Assembly (NCBI RefSeq): GCF_002217405.1
Contig: NZ_MUHE01000030.1
Location: forward strand, 62,001-126,000
Origin: Flavobacterium psychrophilum DSM 3660 = ATCC 49418
GTDB taxonomy: Bacteria; Bacteroidota; Bacteroidia; Flavobacteriales; Flavobacteriaceae
Length of the DNA: 64,000 nucleotides
Direction: 5' to 3'
The notes under the pieces are model-generated. The model had not been told where the DNA came from and made no database searches. It saw only the letters and a program-made list of their open reading frames with translations. Positions within the stretch are counted from its first letter, which is position 1, and each line of letters begins with the position of its first letter. Shown in pieces: positions 35,713 to 46,901 of the stretch. The position numbers and the translations under genes were made by a program.

Positions 35713-36738
35713 ATGTTTAAAGATAAAGTCCTTTTAATTACTGGAGGAACAGGTTCATTTGGGAACGCGATGTTGAAGGGGTTTTTAGATTCAGAATTGA
35801 AAGAAATTCGAATTTTTAGCCGTGATGAGAAGAAGCAAGAAGACATGCGTGTCGAGTATAAAAATGATAAATTAAACTTTGTTATCGGCGATATTCGTGA
35901 TTTTGACAGTATTAATAATGCGATGATGGGTGTGAATTTTGTGTTTCATGCTGCGGCTTTGAAACAAGTGCCGTCTTGTGAGTTTTATCCAATGCAAGCG
36001 GTACAAACCAATATTCTGGGTGCTGAAAATGTTTTGGAATCAGCCGCCAGAAATAACATAGAAAGAGTCGTGGTTTTAAGTACTGATAAAGCGGTTTATC
36101 CTATTAATACCATGGGGATTTCTAAAGCCATGATGGAAAAAATGCTCGTTTCAAAAGCAAGAGATCATAGGGTTAAAGGAATCAATGCCATTTATACAGC
36201 TACTCGATATGGAAATGTAATGTGCTCCAGAGGATCAATCATTCCTCTTTTTATCAAACAAATCAAAGAAGGAAAACCACTTACTATTACCAATCCGATG
36301 ATGACCCGTTTTATGATGTCATTAGATGATTCAGTAGGTTTGGTCATGTTTGCTTTTAAAAACGGTAATCCAGGTGATATTTTTGTGCAAAAATCACCAG
36401 CATCTACGATTGCTGATTTAGCCCAAGCTTTAAAAGAGTTGTTCAATGCCAATAATCAAATAAACATTATTGGAGAGCGTCATGCCGAAAAAATGTATGA
36501 AACATTGTGTTCTAAAGAAGAAATGTCTAAAGCAGATGATTTAGGTGGTTTTTATCGTGTACCTGCTGATTTTAGAGATTTGAATTACACCAAATACGTA
36601 CAAGAAGATGGGCCAAAATTAATCGACGCCGAATATAATTCGGACAATACGGATAGATTAACTGTAGAAGAGTTGAAAAAATTATTGCTAACATTAGATT
36701 ACGTTCAAGGCGAATTGGCATCTCATAATAAAATATAA
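35713..36738 (+). CDS. UDP-GlcNAc 4,6-dehydratase family protein, CapE/FnlA-like
   Basis: 341-aa SDR of the soluble polysaccharide-biosynthesis dehydratase group (PseB/CapE/FnlA/WbjB). It has GGTGSFGNAMLKGF, HAAALKQVPSCE, and STDKAVYPINTMGISKAMME, where Met replaces the usual Tyr of YxxxK, as in this family. It probably forms a UDP-4-keto-6-deoxy-HexNAc. The two DegT-family genes that follow by 4 bp and by overlap make it the likely source of the 4-keto substrate. FnlB/FnlC homologues for L-FucNAc are not seen. Confidence 0.82.
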   Translation: MFKDKVLLITGGTGSFGNAMLKGFLDSELKEIRIFSRDEKKQEDMRVEYKNDKLNFVIGDIRDFDSINNAMMGVNFVFHAAALKQVPSCEFYPMQAVQTNILGAENVLESAARNNIERVVVLSTDKAVYPINTMGISKAMMEKMLVSKARDHRVKGINAIYTATRYGNVMCSRGSIIPLFIKQIKEGKPLTITNPMMTRFMMSLDDSVGLVMFAFKNGNPGDIFVQKSPASTIADLAQALKELFNANNQINIIGERHAEKMYETLCSKEEMSKADDLGGFYRVPADFRDLNYTKYVQEDGPKLIDAEYNSDNTDRLTVEELKKLLLTLDYVQGELASHNKI

Positions 36739-36742
36739 CAAT

Positions 36743-37831
36743 ATGTTACCATTAGTACAAACTTCCATACCCGCAAAAGAAATTTTGATGCCAAGATTAG
36801 AACAAGTTCTATACAGCGGTTATGTAGCTCAAGGAGAAATTGTTGAGCAATTTGAAAGAGAATTTGAAAAATATATAGGAGGTGGTCATACGCTTTCTCT
36901 TAATTCTGGGACTGCAGCCTTACATATTGCTTTAATTTTAGCAGGAGTACAGTCTGGAGATGAAGTGATTAGTACAGCGTTAACTGCCGAGCCAACCAAT
37001 ACTTCAATTAAACAAGCGGGTGCAAAAATTAGATATGCCGATGTTGATATTGAAACAGGAAATGTTTCTGCGGACGCTATTGAGAAAGCTATTAACACTA
37101 AAACAAAAGCCATACTAGTTGTTGATTATGCTGGAATACCCGTAGACGTAAAACGTATTAAAGAAATTTCAGAAAAATATAATATTCCTGTTATTCAAGA
37201 TGCTGCGCACGCATTAGGGTCGAAATATGATGGTAAAAAGGTGGGAAATCATTTTCCTTTTACAGTATTCTCCTTTCAAGCAATCAAGCATTTAACTACA
37301 ATTGATGGTGGTGCTTTGCAAATTCAAGATAAAGATTTATACGAAAAAGCAAAGCTTATTCGCTGGTTTGGATTAGATAAAAAACGTTCCAGAATGGATA
37401 ATAATATTTCAATGCAAGGTTATAAATACCACATGAATAATGTGAATGCAACTGTAGGATTAGTTCAATTAGAGAATATTGAAGAGCTAATTCAAAAACA
37501 CATTACCAACGGAAAATATCTTGACGAACATTTAAAAAATATAGAAGGTGTTGAATTAATTCAATATTATCCAAATACAGAACCTTCTTACTGGCTTTAT
37601 ACATTAAAAGTTAAAAACAGAGAAGCGTTCATAAAAAAAATGGCAGACAATGGTATTATGGCGTCTGAATTACATAAAAGGAATGATTCGCATACCTATT
37701 TAAACGATTTTAATATTGAATTGCCAAACTTAAATACCTTTTATGAGAAAATGGTCCACATTCCTTGTGGATGGTGGGTTACTAAAGCAGATTGTGATAA
37801 AATGATTGCATTAATTAAATCGGGTTGGTAA
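36743..37831 (+). CDS. DegT/DnrJ/EryC1-family PLP aminotransferase
   Basis: 362-aa sugar aminotransferase. SGTAALH at 55-61 binds phosphate, the PLP aspartate lies in IQDAAHALGS, and the Schiff-base lysine is K182 in FSFQAIKHLTTIDGG. Likely aminates the 4-keto sugar from the preceding dehydratase. Its stop codon overlaps the ATG of the next gene (TAATG), which encodes a paralogue lacking the lysine, so a heteromeric pair is possible. Confidence 0.85.
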   Translation: MLPLVQTSIPAKEILMPRLEQVLYSGYVAQGEIVEQFEREFEKYIGGGHTLSLNSGTAALHIALILAGVQSGDEVISTALTAEPTNTSIKQAGAKIRYADVDIETGNVSADAIEKAINTKTKAILVVDYAGIPVDVKRIKEISEKYNIPVIQDAAHALGSKYDGKKVGNHFPFTVFSFQAIKHLTTIDGGALQIQDKDLYEKAKLIRWFGLDKKRSRMDNNISMQGYKYHMNNVNATVGLVQLENIEELIQKHITNGKYLDEHLKNIEGVELIQYYPNTEPSYWLYTLKVKNREAFIKKMADNGIMASELHKRNDSHTYLNDFNIELPNLNTFYEKMVHIPCGWWVTKADCDKMIALIKSGW

Positions 37832-38886
37832 TGATTCCAATTTTTAAACCCTATATGCCCGAAGGAATTATGCCTGAAATAGAAAATATACTCTATTCTG
37901 GGAATCTTGCATTCGGAAAATTCGGAAAATTATTTGAACAAAGTCTAAAAGAGTATTCAGGAAACGAAAAAACAATAACGGTAAGTTCTTACAACCATGC
38001 CATGCTAATTGTTTTGTCTACATTAGATTTACAACCTGGCGATGAGGTTATAGCTTCTCCTGTAAGTTGTTTGGCTTCTAATCAGCCATTTGTAATTAAA
38101 AATTTAAAGATAGTTTGGGCAGACGTTAATCCTAAAACAGGGAGTGTTGACCCAGAAGATGTTCGAAAAAAAATAACATCAAAAACAAAAGCCATTTTTC
38201 ATAACCATTATTGTGGTTACCTTGGCGAAATTGACGCAATTTCAGAAATTGCCAAAGAATTTGGCTTACTAGTTATTGATGACTGTATTGAAGCTTTTGG
38301 TTCTGAATTTAAAGGCAATAAAATGGGGAATATTGGTACAGATATTACCGTATTTTCTTTCCAAACCGTTCGATTACCAAATACTATTGATGGTGCAGCA
38401 ATTACCTTTAAAGACCAAGATCTTTTTGAAAAAGCCAGTAGAATTAGAGACTATGGTATTGATAGAACCATATTCAGAAATTCCTTTGGGGAAATTAGTG
38501 CAAATTGTGATATAAAATTAGAAGGATATGGTGCTTTAATGAGCGAAATCAATTCTTACATAGGTGTGCAACAAATGAAAGATATTGAAGGATTACTTGC
38601 TATTCAACAAAAAAACGCACAACTATGGCAATCAAAAATTGCCACTGAAAGGAATATAGTCCCTTTAGAAATTAATAAAAATTCCAATCCAAATTATTGG
38701 GTATATGGTGTTTTGTGTGAAAACAAAATGGAGACCTTACAAAAATTTAGAGATGAAGGTTGGTATGCAACAGGTGTGCATATTAACAACAATATATATT
38801 CAGTATTTAACAATAACGAAAAACTGAAAGGTGTTAATGAATTTATGAATTTGTTTTTAGCAATACCTTGCGGTTGGTGGATTTAA
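37831..38886 (+). CDS. DegT-family paralogue lacking the PLP lysine
   Basis: 351 aa with the overall DegT/DnrJ/EryC1 layout: GDEVIASPVSCLAS, FHNHYCGYLGEIDAI and IDDCIEAFGSEF (PLP aspartate kept). The position of the catalytic lysine is Arg (R181, codon CGA at 38371-38373) in FSFQTVRLPNTIDG, whereas the upstream neighbour has Lys at the aligned site. The SGTAAL phosphate loop is also changed, to SSYNHAML. So it cannot form the normal internal aldimine. It may be a structural partner of the 36743-37831 protein or may do different chemistry, like ColD where His replaces Lys. The start is ATG 37831; an in-frame TTG 6 bp upstream lies inside the previous gene. Confidence 0.75.
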   Translation: MIPIFKPYMPEGIMPEIENILYSGNLAFGKFGKLFEQSLKEYSGNEKTITVSSYNHAMLIVLSTLDLQPGDEVIASPVSCLASNQPFVIKNLKIVWADVNPKTGSVDPEDVRKKITSKTKAIFHNHYCGYLGEIDAISEIAKEFGLLVIDDCIEAFGSEFKGNKMGNIGTDITVFSFQTVRLPNTIDGAAITFKDQDLFEKASRIRDYGIDRTIFRNSFGEISANCDIKLEGYGALMSEINSYIGVQQMKDIEGLLAIQQKNAQLWQSKIATERNIVPLEINKNSNPNYWVYGVLCENKMETLQKFRDEGWYATGVHINNNIYSVFNNNEKLKGVNEFMNLFLAIPCGWWI

Positions 38887-38890
38887 TCAA

Positions 38891-39757
38891 ATGGAAACAA
38901 ATCAAATAGATAGCACGGCAAAAATACATCCTAATGTAGTATTAGGAAAGTATAATAGAATAGGAAAAAATGTTATTATTGAAGTTGTAGGTAAAACACC
39001 TAATACTAATGTAATTATTGGTGATAATAATGTCATAAATGATAATACTCGAATTTTTATTTCGGGAGAATTAAAAATTGGTGACTGGAATGTTTTTCAC
39101 AACGATATGCTTTTGATGGCGGAAGACCACATACTTATTGGGCACAACTGCTGGTTCGGACAAAATACTATTTTAGATGGAGCAGGAGGGTTAGAAATAG
39201 GAAATGGTGTTCGTGTTGGTATGTATTCTCAAATTTGGACGCACGTTGCTAGTGGAGAACAAATAGAAGGTTGTACTTTATTCGCTAAAAGAAAAACCAA
39301 AATTGAAGATGATGTTTGGTTAGTTGGAAGTTGTGTTGTAGGTTCGGGATTAAACTTAAGAAAAAGATCAACTGCACTTATTAACTCGGTACTAACAAAA
39401 GACACTCTTCCTGATAGTGTCTATGCTGGAAATCCAGCAAAGTTAATGGAAAAGGCTAATTTTTATTTGTCTAAAACTTTAAACGAAAAATTTGAGATGC
39501 TAAGATTGTGGTTAGAAGAATATGTAACTATAAACAATGTAAGCTACAAACTAAATACCTCAAACGACACACTGATTTTGTCTAATTTAAAGAATAGCGA
39601 GCAAGTTTTATTTACAACACTTGAAGCTAAGCAATCGGATAAATCAAAAAGTGTATTTTATCTATCTGATAAAACTTTTAATAAAACCAATATAATTTCT
39701 GAACGAGAAATATACAAGTTTTTGTACAATAATAAAGCAAGATTTTTGCCTTTATGA
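38891..39757 (+). CDS. Left-handed beta-helix (hexapeptide) acyltransferase
   Basis: 288-aa protein whose first 190 residues are hexapeptide repeats (IHPNVVLGKYNRIG, VIIGDNNVINDN, ILIGHNCWFGQNTILDGAG), ending with SVYAGNPAKLM, as in sugar O- or N-acetyltransferases. The last 100 residues are not recognised and may be an acceptor-binding domain. Its ATGA overlap with the next gene and its place behind the aminotransferases suggest it acylates the amino sugar made there. Confidence 0.75.
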   Translation: METNQIDSTAKIHPNVVLGKYNRIGKNVIIEVVGKTPNTNVIIGDNNVINDNTRIFISGELKIGDWNVFHNDMLLMAEDHILIGHNCWFGQNTILDGAGGLEIGNGVRVGMYSQIWTHVASGEQIEGCTLFAKRKTKIEDDVWLVGSCVVGSGLNLRKRSTALINSVLTKDTLPDSVYAGNPAKLMEKANFYLSKTLNEKFEMLRLWLEEYVTINNVSYKLNTSNDTLILSNLKNSEQVLFTTLEAKQSDKSKSVFYLSDKTFNKTNIISEREIYKFLYNNKARFLPL

Positions 39758-40605
39758 ATACAGTAAATAAAAACATTCTTACTAACTATGCATGTAAACT
39801 TTGGGGTTTTGTATCCATAATTTTGTTTATCCGACTATATATTGATACACTCGGTATTCAAGCTTATGCAATTATTAGTTTTTATACTGTAATTTTAGGG
39901 CTGTTAGCATTTGCCGATTCGGGATTAACAGCTACTTTAACTAGAGAATTAGCCAAAGAAAGTACTAAAAAACACAAGTCAGACTTATTGTCTACCTTTG
40001 AGAAAATGTATTTTGTTATTTGTGTAGTTGTAATTGTGGGTGTTTTTTTATGTTCCAATTATATCGCTTCAAATTTCTTACAGTCTAATGGATATTCTAT
40101 AATTCAAATTTCCTATTTCATAAAATTAATAGGTTTTGGTATCGGCTTTCAATTGTTTTCTACTCTGTATGATGCTGGGTTAATGGCCTTACAAAAGCAA
40201 GGGTTGTTAAATAAAATTCGTATTGATGAAAATCTCAAAAAAGATGATATCCATGTTATGATGTTTGATAAAGGCTGTCTCTTGGCTTATAAGAATCTTG
40301 TGCAAGTAGAGGAGGTTATAAATGATAAAAAGACAGCTTTTCTAGGGATAGGAAATATTTGTTCTAAAGAAAAAGGCAAGGGTTTAGGGCAAGAGTTACT
40401 GCAAGAGGTGAATGCTTTTATGGAAGAGAAAAAGCTGTATGGGATATTATTGTGTAAAAATGAATTGATTGGTTTTTATGCTAAATATCATTGGGTGTTA
40501 GTTGATAAAATTATATTGAATGAGAAATTAAACGGTATTAATGTCATGTTGTTTAATTTAAATGATAATGTCGAATATTTAAACTATGAGTGTAGAAATT
40601 TTTAA
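39754..40605 (+). CDS. Chimera: N-terminal third of a Wzx-like flippase fused to a GNAT domain
   Basis: 283 aa. Residues 1 to about 155 (NKNILTNYACKLWGFVSI to LMALQKQGLLNK) align throughout with the start of the full flippase encoded next (NKNIIANYLGKLWSF to LMGLQKQVLTNK) and contain its first four TM helices. After NKIRI at about nt 40219 the sequence becomes a soluble GNAT acetyltransferase: FLGIGNICSKEKGKGLGQELL (acetyl-CoA loop with KGKGLG) and FYAKYHW. A four-helix flippase stub should not transport. This looks like a recombination scar in which a former flippase gene was truncated into a downstream acetyltransferase. Whether the product is stable is unknown. Confidence 0.75.
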   Translation: MNTVNKNILTNYACKLWGFVSIILFIRLYIDTLGIQAYAIISFYTVILGLLAFADSGLTATLTRELAKESTKKHKSDLLSTFEKMYFVICVVVIVGVFLCSNYIASNFLQSNGYSIIQISYFIKLIGFGIGFQLFSTLYDAGLMALQKQGLLNKIRIDENLKKDDIHVMMFDKGCLLAYKNLVQVEEVINDKKTAFLGIGNICSKEKGKGLGQELLQEVNAFMEEKKLYGILLCKNELIGFYAKYHWVLVDKIILNEKLNGINVMLFNLNDNVEYLNYECRNF

Positions 40606-40606
40606 T

Positions 40607-42070
40607 ATGGATATAGTAAATAAAAATATAATAGCGAATTATCTAGGTAAATTATGGAGTTTTGTTTCTATATTTATTTTTATACGCTTCTATATTGATA
40701 TTCTAGGTGTACAATCTTATGCTGTTATTAATTTTTATGCTGTTATTCTAGGCTTGCTGGCTTTCGCTGATGCTGGACTAACGGCAACTTTAAATCGAGA
40801 ATTAGCCAACGATATTTCTTTGCAAAACAAATCGGATTTGGTTTTTACTTTCGAGAGGATTTATCTCGGTATTTCTTTGTTCGTGATGATTTTGGTTTAT
40901 GTGCTTTCGGATTATATTTCGTGTAATTTCTTAAATTCAACTGAATTTTCAAGGCATGAAATATCACGTTTTATTAAGTTTATAGGGGTTGGTGTCGGGT
41001 TGCAATTATTCTCTACGCTTTATGAAGGAGGCTTGATGGGGCTTCAGAAACAAGTTTTAACAAATAAAGTCAGAATGGTATGGAGTCTTTTTAGATCTGG
41101 AGTTGTGGTTATTCCGTTGTCTTCATATCCTAGCTTAGAAGTTTATTTCGTATGGCAGATTGTGTGTAATTTGGCTTTTTTAGTTGTTTTGAAAGTTCTG
41201 ATTTCCAAATGTTTGAAAACTGAAATGACGGCAGTATTTTCAAAAGAGATGCTTAGAAAGACATGGAGTTATGCACTTGGTATGATGGGAATTGCTTTTG
41301 TTTCTGCAATCAATATTCAAATTGATAAATTGGCTACAAGCAAATTGCTTGATTTGAAATCTTTTGGTTTTTATTCTTTAGCTACTACGATTGCTCAAAT
41401 TCCTGTTTTAGTTGTAATGCCAATTATTGTTGCTGTTTTTCCTATGTTCTCTTTATTGGTTTCAACTAATAATATTGAAAAAAAAACGAATAATTTTCAT
41501 AAATTTTCATTCATTATCACATTGATAGCTGCGCCTATAATGGTTTGCATCTTTCTGTATTCTATACCAATTGTTAAATTATGGACTGGGGATTCTAGTA
41601 TTGCTGTAGCAATTAATCTTACTGTGAAAATTTTAATTGTAGGTAGCTTTTTTCTTTGTTTGCAATTAATGCCGTATTATATTGCCTTAGCAAATGGTCA
41701 TACTAAGACAAATATCATAACGGGTGTTCTTAGTTTGCTACTGGTTGTTCCATTGATAATCTATAGTATAAAGGAATACGGAATGGTTGGGGCTACTTTT
41801 CCTTGGTTGATTGTTAATATTCTTTCTTTTTTTATTATTAGTGTTTCTGTCTTAAATAGATTTTTGCCAAATGAATTGATTAAATGGCTGAAACATGACA
41901 TCGCTATTCCTCTTTTCGTGACAATTTTTATTGCGGTACTAGTATATTATCTAACCTTAAATTTAATAGGGAAATATTGGTTTTTAATTGATATAAGTTT
42001 AATATCTTTGCTGTCTTTAATTGTTAATGTTTTAATTTATAATAAATTAAATAAAAAATATCTTTTCTAA
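40607..42070 (+). CDS. wzx: Polysaccharide flippase, Wzx-like
   Basis: Inner-membrane protein of 487 aa with about 12-14 TM helices of the MOP/MVF-like polysaccharide exporter superfamily. It flips lipid-linked repeat units to the periplasm. Start set at ATG 40607, because alignment with the truncated upstream paralogue begins there, though an in-frame ATG at 40586 exists. Only 1 bp separates it from the chimera. Followed at once by GT2 and polymerase genes, a normal Wzx/Wzy arrangement. Confidence 0.85.
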   Translation: MDIVNKNIIANYLGKLWSFVSIFIFIRFYIDILGVQSYAVINFYAVILGLLAFADAGLTATLNRELANDISLQNKSDLVFTFERIYLGISLFVMILVYVLSDYISCNFLNSTEFSRHEISRFIKFIGVGVGLQLFSTLYEGGLMGLQKQVLTNKVRMVWSLFRSGVVVIPLSSYPSLEVYFVWQIVCNLAFLVVLKVLISKCLKTEMTAVFSKEMLRKTWSYALGMMGIAFVSAINIQIDKLATSKLLDLKSFGFYSLATTIAQIPVLVVMPIIVAVFPMFSLLVSTNNIEKKTNNFHKFSFIITLIAAPIMVCIFLYSIPIVKLWTGDSSIAVAINLTVKILIVGSFFLCLQLMPYYIALANGHTKTNIITGVLSLLLVVPLIIYSIKEYGMVGATFPWLIVNILSFFIISVSVLNRFLPNELIKWLKHDIAIPLFVTIFIAVLVYYLTLNLIGKYWFLIDISLISLLSLIVNVLIYNKLNKKYLF

Positions 42071-42071
42071 A

Positions 42072-43217
42072 ATGAATAAACCTTTGTTAAGTATAGCTAT
42101 TGCTACTAAGGATAGAGAGAAATACTGTATTGCTGCAATTCAATCTATTTTAAGCTATAAAGCTACAAATATTGAAATAGCAATAGCGGATAATAGTGAA
42201 ACTACGCTTGTAAAAGAGTTTGTGGAAAAACTAAATTCTACTCAGGTTAAATATAGATATGACAGCGGAGGAGTTTCTTCAATCGAAAATTTCAATAGAG
42301 CCGTCGAATTAACTACTGGTGAATATCTAATTTTGATAGGTGATGATGATATTATTTTGCCTAAAGCAATCGAAATGGCTAAGTGGGCAAAAGAAAATGA
42401 TATAGATTCTATCTGTTCCAAAGAAACAGTTACGTATTATTGGCCTAAATCAAGGACTATTTATCCAAATGGTCATTTAATTTTGCCTTATAGTACTGGT
42501 AGGATTACCAAAATAGACGTTAAAAAACATTTAGTTAAACTGTTAAAGAATGGGTTACAGCTTTATTTGCTTTATCCACTTCCAAAAACTTACCATGGTA
42601 TTGTCCGAAAAGCATTAATGGATGAGGTGAAATCTAAAACGGGTCATTATTATGGTGGTTTAAGTCCTGATATATATTCTTGTGTAGTAATGTCTTGTTT
42701 GGTTAAAAATCATTATGTCGTTGATGAACCTCTCACTGTGGCAGGTGTTTGTCCTTCTAGTACTACTGCGGATAACTTTACGGGTAAGCATTCGGGTTCT
42801 ATTGCCAATATACCACATCTTAAAAATAGAGGTGTTTATGTTTGGAATAATTTGGTTCCCAAATATTATAGCGTTAACACCATTTGGGCAGAATCTGGAT
42901 TGACAGCTTTAGAAGAGCTTAAACAAACGATATTGTTAAATGATTTTAATGTTTATAAATTATTAGTACAAGGATGGATTAATAATAATAAATTCATTCC
43001 TGATTTAATTAGAGAAGAGAATGAAAAAATAAGAATAAGTCTTCAAACATCTATAATAATTTTTAAATTTAATTTTTTTAAAGCGTTGTCTGAAACAGTT
43101 ATAAAAAAAATCATACATGTTGTGCAAGGTAAATTAAGAAGAAAAGCCGTTTTTGCTCAGGATAATGTTCGGGATTTTAGTGAGGTGTTGGCTATTTATA
43201 GAAATAACATAAAATAA
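42072..43217 (+). CDS. Glycosyltransferase family 2
   Basis: 381-aa GT-A enzyme. N-terminal LLSIAIATKDREKYCIAAIQSI, then IAIADNSE, and the metal-binding DDD in LILIGDDDIILPKA near residue 95. No TM segment is obvious. Adds a sugar to the repeat unit; donor and linkage cannot be told. Ends directly at the start of the polymerase gene. Confidence 0.82.
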   Translation: MNKPLLSIAIATKDREKYCIAAIQSILSYKATNIEIAIADNSETTLVKEFVEKLNSTQVKYRYDSGGVSSIENFNRAVELTTGEYLILIGDDDIILPKAIEMAKWAKENDIDSICSKETVTYYWPKSRTIYPNGHLILPYSTGRITKIDVKKHLVKLLKNGLQLYLLYPLPKTYHGIVRKALMDEVKSKTGHYYGGLSPDIYSCVVMSCLVKNHYVVDEPLTVAGVCPSSTTADNFTGKHSGSIANIPHLKNRGVYVWNNLVPKYYSVNTIWAESGLTALEELKQTILLNDFNVYKLLVQGWINNNKFIPDLIREENEKIRISLQTSIIIFKFNFFKALSETVIKKIIHVVQGKLRRKAVFAQDNVRDFSEVLAIYRNNIK

Positions 43218-44273
43218 ATGGTTTTTTATATTACATCATACTTGTTTACGACATTTTTGGCTATTAATTATAACAATGAGCAAAGGTTAAAAGTTTCTGG
43301 TTTTTGGTTATTGCTGTTTTTTATTTTACCGGCATTGCTTATTGCAGTTTTAAAAGGTAATATCGGTACGGATACTTTTTTTTATTTGGCTTTTTTTGAC
43401 GATTTGATCAAATATGATGTGTCGAGTTTTAATTTTGAACCAGGTTTTCAAATTTTAGCACAATATATTACTTGTTGGGCTCCAAATAAACAAATTGCTG
43501 TTGGCTTTGTTATTCTTTTAACAACGGTCTTACTTTGTAAATCATTTTCGCAAAGTAAACAGCTTATTGTCTTTTTTTCCTTGTTGGTTTTTCCTATTTT
43601 TTATGTAGATATGACTATGAATGGTCTTAGGTACGGCTTAAGTTTTGCTTTAGCGGTAAATGCAATTGATTATTTATACAAAGGAAAATTTAAATTTTTT
43701 ATTGCTTTGGCTTTCTGTTCTATTTCTGTGCAATATTCGGGATTGTTGATAATTTTAGTTTTTTTATTGGACAGAATAAAAAGGCGTAAATTATTTATAA
43801 TATCTGTTCTAGGTGTTGCTTTTCTTCCAGTTTTAACACATCTATTTGATTCGGAATTGAAATATCTTGTTCAAAAAGAAGATGCGTATGGTGAAATCTA
43901 TTCACCATCAATAGCTTCTGGATCAGCCCCATTATTTTTATACTTTATTATTCATTTTCTGTATAATAAATATGTTGATAAAAGTAAAATATCCAAAATT
44001 ATATACGTTTTTTTACTATTCGAGCTGCTTTCATTTGTTATGGCAAAATTCACGTGGGCGGGACTACGTTTTCAATACTTATTTCTTTTTGTGTTTATAA
44101 TTTATATTAAACAAAATTATTATATCGAAAAGGCGATAGTTTTTGGGAATAGACTAGTTTTAGTGAGTTTAATTTCATTTTTATTTATGATTAAAAATAT
44201 TATCCCTGTTTCTGATGATTTATCTATCTATCAATATATTCCTTATCAATTTTACTGGGAAGTTACAAATTAA
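43218..44273 (+). CDS. wzy: EpsG-family polymerase, Wzy candidate
   Basis: 351-aa hydrophobic protein with roughly 9-10 TM helices. GNIGTDTFFYLAFF after TM2, followed by the DMTMNGLRYGLSFAL segment, matches the EpsG family, which serves as repeat-unit polymerase in many O-antigen and EPS loci. It is the only polymerase candidate between the two Wza/Wzc pairs. Confidence 0.8.
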   Translation: MVFYITSYLFTTFLAINYNNEQRLKVSGFWLLLFFILPALLIAVLKGNIGTDTFFYLAFFDDLIKYDVSSFNFEPGFQILAQYITCWAPNKQIAVGFVILLTTVLLCKSFSQSKQLIVFFSLLVFPIFYVDMTMNGLRYGLSFALAVNAIDYLYKGKFKFFIALAFCSISVQYSGLLIILVFLLDRIKRRKLFIISVLGVAFLPVLTHLFDSELKYLVQKEDAYGEIYSPSIASGSAPLFLYFIIHFLYNKYVDKSKISKIIYVFLLFELLSFVMAKFTWAGLRFQYLFLFVFIIYIKQNYYIEKAIVFGNRLVLVSLISFLFMIKNIIPVSDDLSIYQYIPYQFYWEVTN

Positions 44274-45905: not shown

Positions 45906-46901
45906 GATTATTCTAAGTGGTAATAACAGACGATAGTCGTAGATTTTATTTTGCGACAGCAATTTTTTTTGTAAACATCAATACGTTTTTTGAGGTTCTT
46001 CTGTGGCTAATCAAAAAAATGTTACTTTTTTATGACTGAGTTATATAGAATAACCTCTTGTTTATTCTTAAATATATCTATGTGATTACTGCTTGTTTTA
46101 TTTATGGAATTTTAATTACTTGTAAATTCTTAAAGTGTTGTTTTAAAGTAAATTATGATTCTTAAATGAAAGTCGAATGGTTTGGGTTCAACAAAGATGA
46201 CGAAAAGTGACCAGGTAATATTTTTAAAAATGATAGAATTTTTATTGACCCACAGACATCATTTATTCTAAAGTAGTAGCGCTAATATGTTGCTGATAGG
46301 TAAATGTTGTGTAGTTTTGCCTTCATTGAAATTCGGTATTAGCTTAATAGGGTAAGTGGCGAAATCAACTTGTTTGGTTTTAAAAATTTTCTTTCATGCG
46401 GTTAGGGGGTGTAGACTTTAAATGAGTTGAATTAAAATCTCCCAGTATTAAAAGGTATTATTTTGATAATCCTTTATAAAACTTAATGTATTTTAGATTG
46501 TGTTATAGGGAAATCCTTTTGAGACGTGAATAATGTACTATTCAATTCTTTTTGAACAAAAATTAAGTTTCCAGGTATTTATATATTTCGTGTTTGGAAT
46601 ATGGATCTACTAATTTTAAATAGTTATTTGTAATGCCTCGTACTTGGTATATTGCTAAAAATGTTCCTCCGAGTTATCTGAATTTGTATATAGATGTCGT
46701 TAATTTGTATTTCAGCTATGATTTCCGCTCTTCAAATAACAAAATAGGATTAATATAAGAGTGAATAAAGCTATCAAATTGATAAATATTGAATTAATAT
46801 TCTTAATTCTGTTGCTTTATGTGTGTATATCAATACTTGGTATTAAGATGAAAATAATAATACTATTCAATATTAAAGCAGTATAAAAATTAAAGAAAAA
46901 C
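45906..46901. other. 996-bp gap without a credible gene, possible decayed gene
   Basis: No frame here has recognisable protein motifs. An ATG overlapping the upstream TGA (45902) hits TAA at codon 5. The same frame then stays open to about 46165 without a recognisable product. A 41-codon frame at 46633-46758 is also unrecognised. No TAnnTTTG match, strong terminator or tRNA is seen. In a locus where genes otherwise overlap or nearly touch, this looks like the remains of one glycosyltransferase-sized gene, but that is inference. Confidence 0.4.

Follow-up and report, generated by a model that had tools for sequence, protein, structure and literature searches.

Recombination in O-antigen and capsule loci leaves decayed or truncated genes at the edges of the exchanged segments. 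Among the genes of such loci are the MOP/Wzx flippases, membrane proteins with about 12-14 membrane helices and about 490 residues. Gene exchange driven by recombination at the polysaccharide locus has been stated, in the part of the source available to us (PMC5601056). In addition, Flavobacterium psychrophilum strains with otherwise identical O-polysaccharide loci were described, in the accessible part of another report, to differ in their R-group genes, which include PglD-type acyltransferases, and to differ in LPS antigenicity (PMC6519341). The acyltransferases named for that R-group locus are the PglD homologues wfpG, wfpH, and wfpI (PMC6519341, same part), whereas the alternatives in the locus described here are a hexapeptide enzyme and a GNAT acetyltransferase.

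The window, which is the whole stretch of 64,000 nucleotides that was analyzed, contains a polysaccharide locus with all of the following genes on the plus strand. A FnlA/PseB-like UDP-GlcNAc 4,6-dehydratase (35713-36738), scoring under the cut-offs of both models, is followed by a DegT-family, PseC-like aminotransferase 1 (36743-37831) and by a second DegT-family protein, aminotransferase 2 (37831-38886), which lies directly before the acyltransferase slot. The start of aminotransferase 2 was placed at TTG 37825 by the ORF caller, and the first ATG is at 37831. The slot itself is occupied by a hexapeptide (left-handed beta-helix) acyltransferase (38891-39757), a probable N-acyltransferase, at the position where relatives carry the GNAT. 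Two further genes of the window we take to be RmlB-like and RmlA-like, and Pfam agrees with these enzyme classes. Two rml genes are likewise present in the R-group locus of F. psychrophilum, a species of the same genus, as far as the available part of that report goes (PMC6519341), and the two loci are also alike in having amino-sugar nucleotide genes and a strain-variable acyltransferase, which in the R-group locus affects LPS antigenicity. The window differs from the R-group locus in its two DegT aminotransferases and in a leftover seam of gene fragments.

The seam is an open reading frame at 39754-40605 on the plus strand, which encodes 283 amino acids in 283 open codons without internal stops. 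It is composed of codons 1-156 of a MOP/Wzx-type polysaccharide flippase (flippase 1; 39754-40221) and 127 residues of a GNAT (40222-40605), joined in frame at 40219-40224, and both halves are incomplete. When the sequences were compared codon by codon, flippase similarity extended up to R156, the last flippase-like codon, and GNAT similarity began at I157, the first GNAT-like codon, placing the join at codons 156-157 and confirming the junction that the earlier note had located at about 40219. I157 is the counterpart of residue 38 in the intact GNAT, and the remnant corresponds to residues 38-165 of a 165-residue protein, with its own stop codon kept at 40603-40605. The same note had described a flippase start running into a GNAT, which is borne out by 61% identity between residues 1-155 and the beginning of flippase 2, the gene that follows, and by the match of the remaining residues to stand-alone GNATs. 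Its description of a truncated flippase fused to a GNAT stands for the flippase; the GNAT is truncated as well, and two fragments have been joined.

Both edges of the frame look native in the sequence. On the left, its start overlaps the stop of the hexapeptide gene by four bases (ATGA), and on the right, a stop-T-ATG arrangement leaves one base between the fusion stop and the start of flippase 2 (40607-42070, plus strand, 487 residues from 40607). This start is most likely 40607 and not 40586 because the motif M-x-x-V-N-K-N-I lines up. Codon 157 has two bases in common with flippase 2, a microhomology that is interpretable only against the true parents. The GC content is 29.5% in the flippase 1 part, 29.2% in the GNAT part, and 30.0% in flippase 2; composition was rejected as a marker of a foreign side, with near-equal values on both sides of the junction.

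The flippase half was recognized by Pfam PF01943 (polysaccharide flippase) on residues 9-139, with 30.8 bits against a cut-off of 28.2, in agreement with MOP/Wzx similarity. Flippase 1 is not a full-length member, with 156 codons or about a third of the protein; the frames of flippase matches other than the query measured 495-521 residues in nine of ten cases, and the tenth (G192, 433 residues), which stops at a contig end, was excluded from the flippase tree and from the count of invariant residues. A direct comparison of the fusion with flippase 2 gave 97 identities in 169 positions (57% over the alignment; E 5e-62, calculated for a single comparison), and the starts of the two flippases are 69% identical in DNA. 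At these identities (69% in DNA and 61% in protein), a recent in situ duplication of flippase 2 is an unlikely origin of flippase 1. In the tree, flippase 2 is sister to flippase 1 (support 95/93), the two being mutual closest relatives in the sample, and lies outside the clade of the flippase of one GNAT locus (G377). The closeness of flippases 1 and 2 suggests that the parental loci made related O-units. The missing C terminus of flippase 1 was not found elsewhere in the genome.

The GNAT half gave weak Pfam GNAT signals from residue 159 onward (E 0.006 to 0.2, all under the gathering scores), and no GNAT was detected in the fusion with the NCBIfam profiles. The glycine-rich stretch of the intact homologues is aligned by GIGNICSKEKGKGLGQELL in the fusion, which thus retains the acetyl-CoA motif region; the glycine-rich loop ahead of the long helix we take to be the GNAT acetyl-CoA motif. 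Residues 155-283 were used as a query against 398 genus genomes, drawn evenly from a larger group and including the genome of the window itself. Besides the window, clear homologues were present in four of them (G062, G294, G377, and G070), all stand-alone proteins of 165-166 residues and 37-45% identical to the GNAT half. Two more matches in the genus sample were weak, and the weak matches G128, G209, and G054 (E 3e-5 to 9e-4) were excluded from the clear homologues. Two further stand-alone GNATs came from a Bacteroidetes metagenome-assembled genome (L049, 43%) and from another genus of the family (G618, 34%; from a sample of 369 family genomes), so that intact GNATs measure 165-167 residues across six genomes. 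Loci L050-L053 were taken as those of G294, G062, G377, and G070, and each locus was counted once.

Comparing the neighborhoods of these genes, it becomes clear that the position after aminotransferase 2 is a changing slot. Apart from the window, six genomes have a clear GNAT homologue (G062, G294, G377, G070, L049, and G618), and in 6/6 of them the intact GNAT directly follows aminotransferase 2. In two of these, G377 and G618, a flippase of the same family overlaps the end of the GNAT by four bases and is followed by a glycosyltransferase that is 44% and 29% identical, respectively, to the family 2 glycosyltransferase located after flippase 2 in the window (42072-43217, plus strand). In the other four GNAT loci, a gene other than a flippase of the window's family comes next. 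Close homologues of the hexapeptide acyltransferase (72-75% identity) were found in five other genomes of the 398 (G076, G095, G240, G299, and G378); in all five, the gene directly follows aminotransferase 2, and a flippase of the same family lies within about 2.1 kb. Three of them (G076, G240, and G299; loci L023, L024, and L027) carry a beta-ketoacyl-ACP synthase III gene and a short-chain-reductase-type gene between the hexapeptide gene and the flippase (the synthase family was checked in each of them, the reductase family in G076), and the presence of these genes suggests that an unusual acyl group could be made for the sugar. Neither gene stands beside the hexapeptide gene in the window. 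In G095, the flippase is separated from the hexapeptide gene by a second hexapeptide gene of 168 residues (L031:5857-6363). The counterpart of this second gene in G378 (L033:5884-6402) has decayed: several stops interrupt the hexapeptide acyltransferase sequence, which forms a second scar at the equivalent position.

Moreover, the slot holds a different hexapeptide protein in G017 (L025:9006-10025) and, in G035 (L026:7169-7882) and G581 (L064:5156-5827), proteins that no Pfam family matches, in addition to the GNAT of six other loci and the window-type hexapeptide enzyme of five. As in an R-group-type slot, an acyltransferase beside amino-sugar genes varies between genomes. In G618, which has a GNAT, a small hexapeptide-type gene separates the two aminotransferases; one locus can thus hold both kinds, and they are not strictly exclusive. 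In the tree of aminotransferase 2, in which the window sequence begins one codon after ATG 37831 (as it does in the search of rpoA relatives below), the window groups with G076 and G095 (98/95) and, less firmly, with G378 added (88/93), and the proteins of the hexapeptide loci G240 and G299 are grouped with GNAT locus G294 and with G017. Aminotransferase 2 therefore does not sort cleanly by acyltransferase across loci, a pattern that fits repeated exchange.

Further along the locus, the gene at the polymerase position (43218-44273) matches Pfam EpsG (E 4e-25) and may encode a Wzy-type polymerase. A region of about 1 kb within the polysaccharide operon (45906-46901) has no ORF of at least 80 residues on either strand and is possibly a decayed gene; in a tblastn comparison with the proteins of four related loci (L022, L029, L031, and L033), nothing significant was found in it (best E 0.04). 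The gene rpoA lies 23 kb from the locus in the window and 25-45 kb from it, on the same contig, in 6/12 relatives among the matches listed, these six being the usable ones; in G192, rpoA is on another contig, and G377, G035, G062, G095, and G378 had no usable place listed. The locus appears often to occupy the same genomic site, so exchange via shared flanks would be easy.

No fused homologue was seen among the matches in the 398 genus genomes (an even sample, with flippase matches reported to E 1e-20), among those in the 369 family genomes, or in five confirmed GNAT loci of the species-genome collection. When the whole fusion was run against that collection, by exact short patterns of one protein and thus with low sensitivity, no match was confirmed, and a search of plasmids gave none. 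A conserved fusion architecture, which the earlier note had named as the outcome that would overturn its reading if the same fusion occurred in distant genomes, was rejected on the genus, family, and species-collection matches. No description of such a fusion was found in the titles and abstract openings of the published work listed.

The open reading frame most likely marks the seam where an illegitimate (non-homologous) crossover joined two O-antigen-type loci, a recombination scar that is ordinary in kind and well preserved. A recombination point in an antigen locus had been proposed at the outset, together with a look among relatives for intact flippases and stand-alone GNATs; both were found, the breakpoint was located at codons 156-157, and the existence of intact relatives of both broken genes elsewhere supports that proposal. 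On the gene orders of the relatives and the grouping of aminotransferase 2, a hexapeptide-type locus and a GNAT-type locus have probably been joined in the window, whose left part is of the hexapeptide type and whose right part shows the GNAT-type gene order. One parent would have carried aminotransferase 2, the hexapeptide acyltransferase, and flippase 1, and the other parent aminotransferase 2, the GNAT acyltransferase, flippase 2, and the glycosyltransferase. The join falls inside flippase 1 (codon 156) and the GNAT (codon 38), leaving a pair of gene fragments within one open frame, and the seam would result if one side of the exchanged segment recombined homologously while the other was joined illegitimately. 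The acyltransferase was probably part of what was exchanged. The outcome would be either the swap of a GNAT for a hexapeptide enzyme as the amino-sugar N-acylating enzyme or, in mirror image, the arrival of a new flippase together with the transferases downstream of it. At present, the hexapeptide acyltransferase and flippase 2 are probably the proteins in use, with the fusion product itself probably inactive. The frame of the fusion may have stayed open either because the event is recent or because read-through to 40603-40605 would couple translation to the flippase 2 start at 40607.

Several observations count against this crossover. The exact left parent, with a hexapeptide gene directly overlapping the flippase, was found in 0/5 of the hexapeptide genomes, and for the right parent the match is confined to gene order, as flippase 2 falls outside the G377 clade. 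The four GNAT loci lacking such a flippase next to the GNAT, the grouping of G240 and G299, and the coexistence of both enzyme kinds in G618 also speak against it. The undecayed state of the GNAT half counts against a scar and would fit a kept function too.

The earlier note had read the junction as the replacement of one flippase by another, of which the recombination is upheld and the direction is not. As a sub-case of the crossover and compatible with it, flippase 2 and the downstream genes could have come in and replaced an older flippase 1, in which case the GNAT fragment would be where the incoming piece begins on its left. That aminotransferase 2 groups with three hexapeptide-type loci favors this order, and nothing specific argues against it. 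The junction is symmetric and fits the reverse equally well: the same seam would arise if a hexapeptide segment with part of flippase 1 had entered an aminotransferase-GNAT-flippase 2 locus in which flippase 2 was native. Either flippase may thus have been the native one. GC content does not separate the sides, and from the 16 genomes that matched best in rpoA, out of 299 of the genus, no aminotransferase 2 match was obtained at E 1e-60 (a search run without a positive control), so that they give no guide to the ancestral state. We hold the replacement of flippase 1 to be possible, at somewhat below an even chance.

A functional chimera is very unlikely. Here, the flippase membrane helices, probably four in number, would anchor the GNAT on the cytoplasmic side of the membrane, to acetylate a lipid-linked glycan or its precursor; the earlier note had raised a membrane-anchored acetyltransferase that might still act on the glycan. 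The frame is open throughout, the GNAT half keeps 21/23 otherwise invariant residues (23 of 23-25 in the intact members), and its mean identity to intact GNATs is 39.9%, compared with 35.9-40.9% among these; such conservation may mean that the event is recent or that the frame has been kept. However, the GNAT fold is not complete in the fusion. The model of an intact GNAT, a normal GNAT of good confidence (pLDDT 89.7, six-row alignment), has a strand at residues 2-7 and helices at 13-23 and 31-41, and without residues 1-37 the fusion lacks beta 1, alpha 1, and the greater part of alpha 2. The fusion itself gave a poor model (mean pLDDT 70.8, pTM 0.44, eight-row alignment), which is at its lowest, below a pLDDT of 50, at residues 150-160, where a replacement of the lost part would be needed, and which offers no confident rebuilding of that part. 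In addition, the slot is already filled by a complete acyltransferase, and no fused homologue accompanies the chimera among the matches. The flippase half is perhaps slightly relaxed in constraint: the end branch measures 0.69, compared with 0.35 in flippase 2, and 3/25 residues that are invariant elsewhere are changed, yet 3/28 are changed both in flippase 2 and in G470. Very unlikely, too, is a young chimera in which flippase helices replace the lost front of the GNAT and the protein acetylates the O-unit at the inner membrane alongside the hexapeptide acyltransferase.

Another very unlikely reading is an assembly artefact in which reads of two loci or strains were joined. In its favor, the assembly is a draft of 83 contigs. 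Against it, the 141-base stretch across the junction has further matches in the genome of just 18-34 bases (E 0.05 or worse), the stretch matches once in the window (where four 12-base words recur), the starts of the two flippases share only 69% of their DNA sequence, there is no orphan flippase C terminus and only a weak match to the missing GNAT N terminus in a separate frame of 166 residues (E 0.04), the contamination estimate is 0.03%, and the join is in frame.

Taken as the seam of a crossover, the frame pins one exchange step to two codons and suggests that what changed hands is an enzyme with a presumed role in decorating the amino sugar; the chimera itself is probably a dead end. The changing slot, with a GNAT, at least two hexapeptide types, and others across Flavobacterium surface loci, may help serotype prediction. 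By analogy, it resembles the R-group slot of F. psychrophilum, apparently following the same logic with different enzymes. With regard to the MOP/Wzx flippases (PF01943), the N-terminal 156 codons and the intact flippase 2 both belong to the family, and flippase 1 is not expected to form a transport path. The nearest solved fold to the GNAT is AAC(2')-I, an aminoglycoside 2'-N-acetyltransferase that acetylates amino sugars: the model of an intact relative (L051) superimposes on 7jzs with TM scores of 0.77/0.71, and the best profile match by sequence is the same enzyme (6vr2, E 3e-4). The fold is alike in intact L051 at 15% identity, and the window protein is without the first 37 residues. Finally, the fragments of the window are of the same kind as the broken pieces that recombination leaves at the edges of exchanged segments, such as the decayed hexapeptide gene in the equivalent position of its relative G378, and differ in that they happen to be in frame and uninterrupted.
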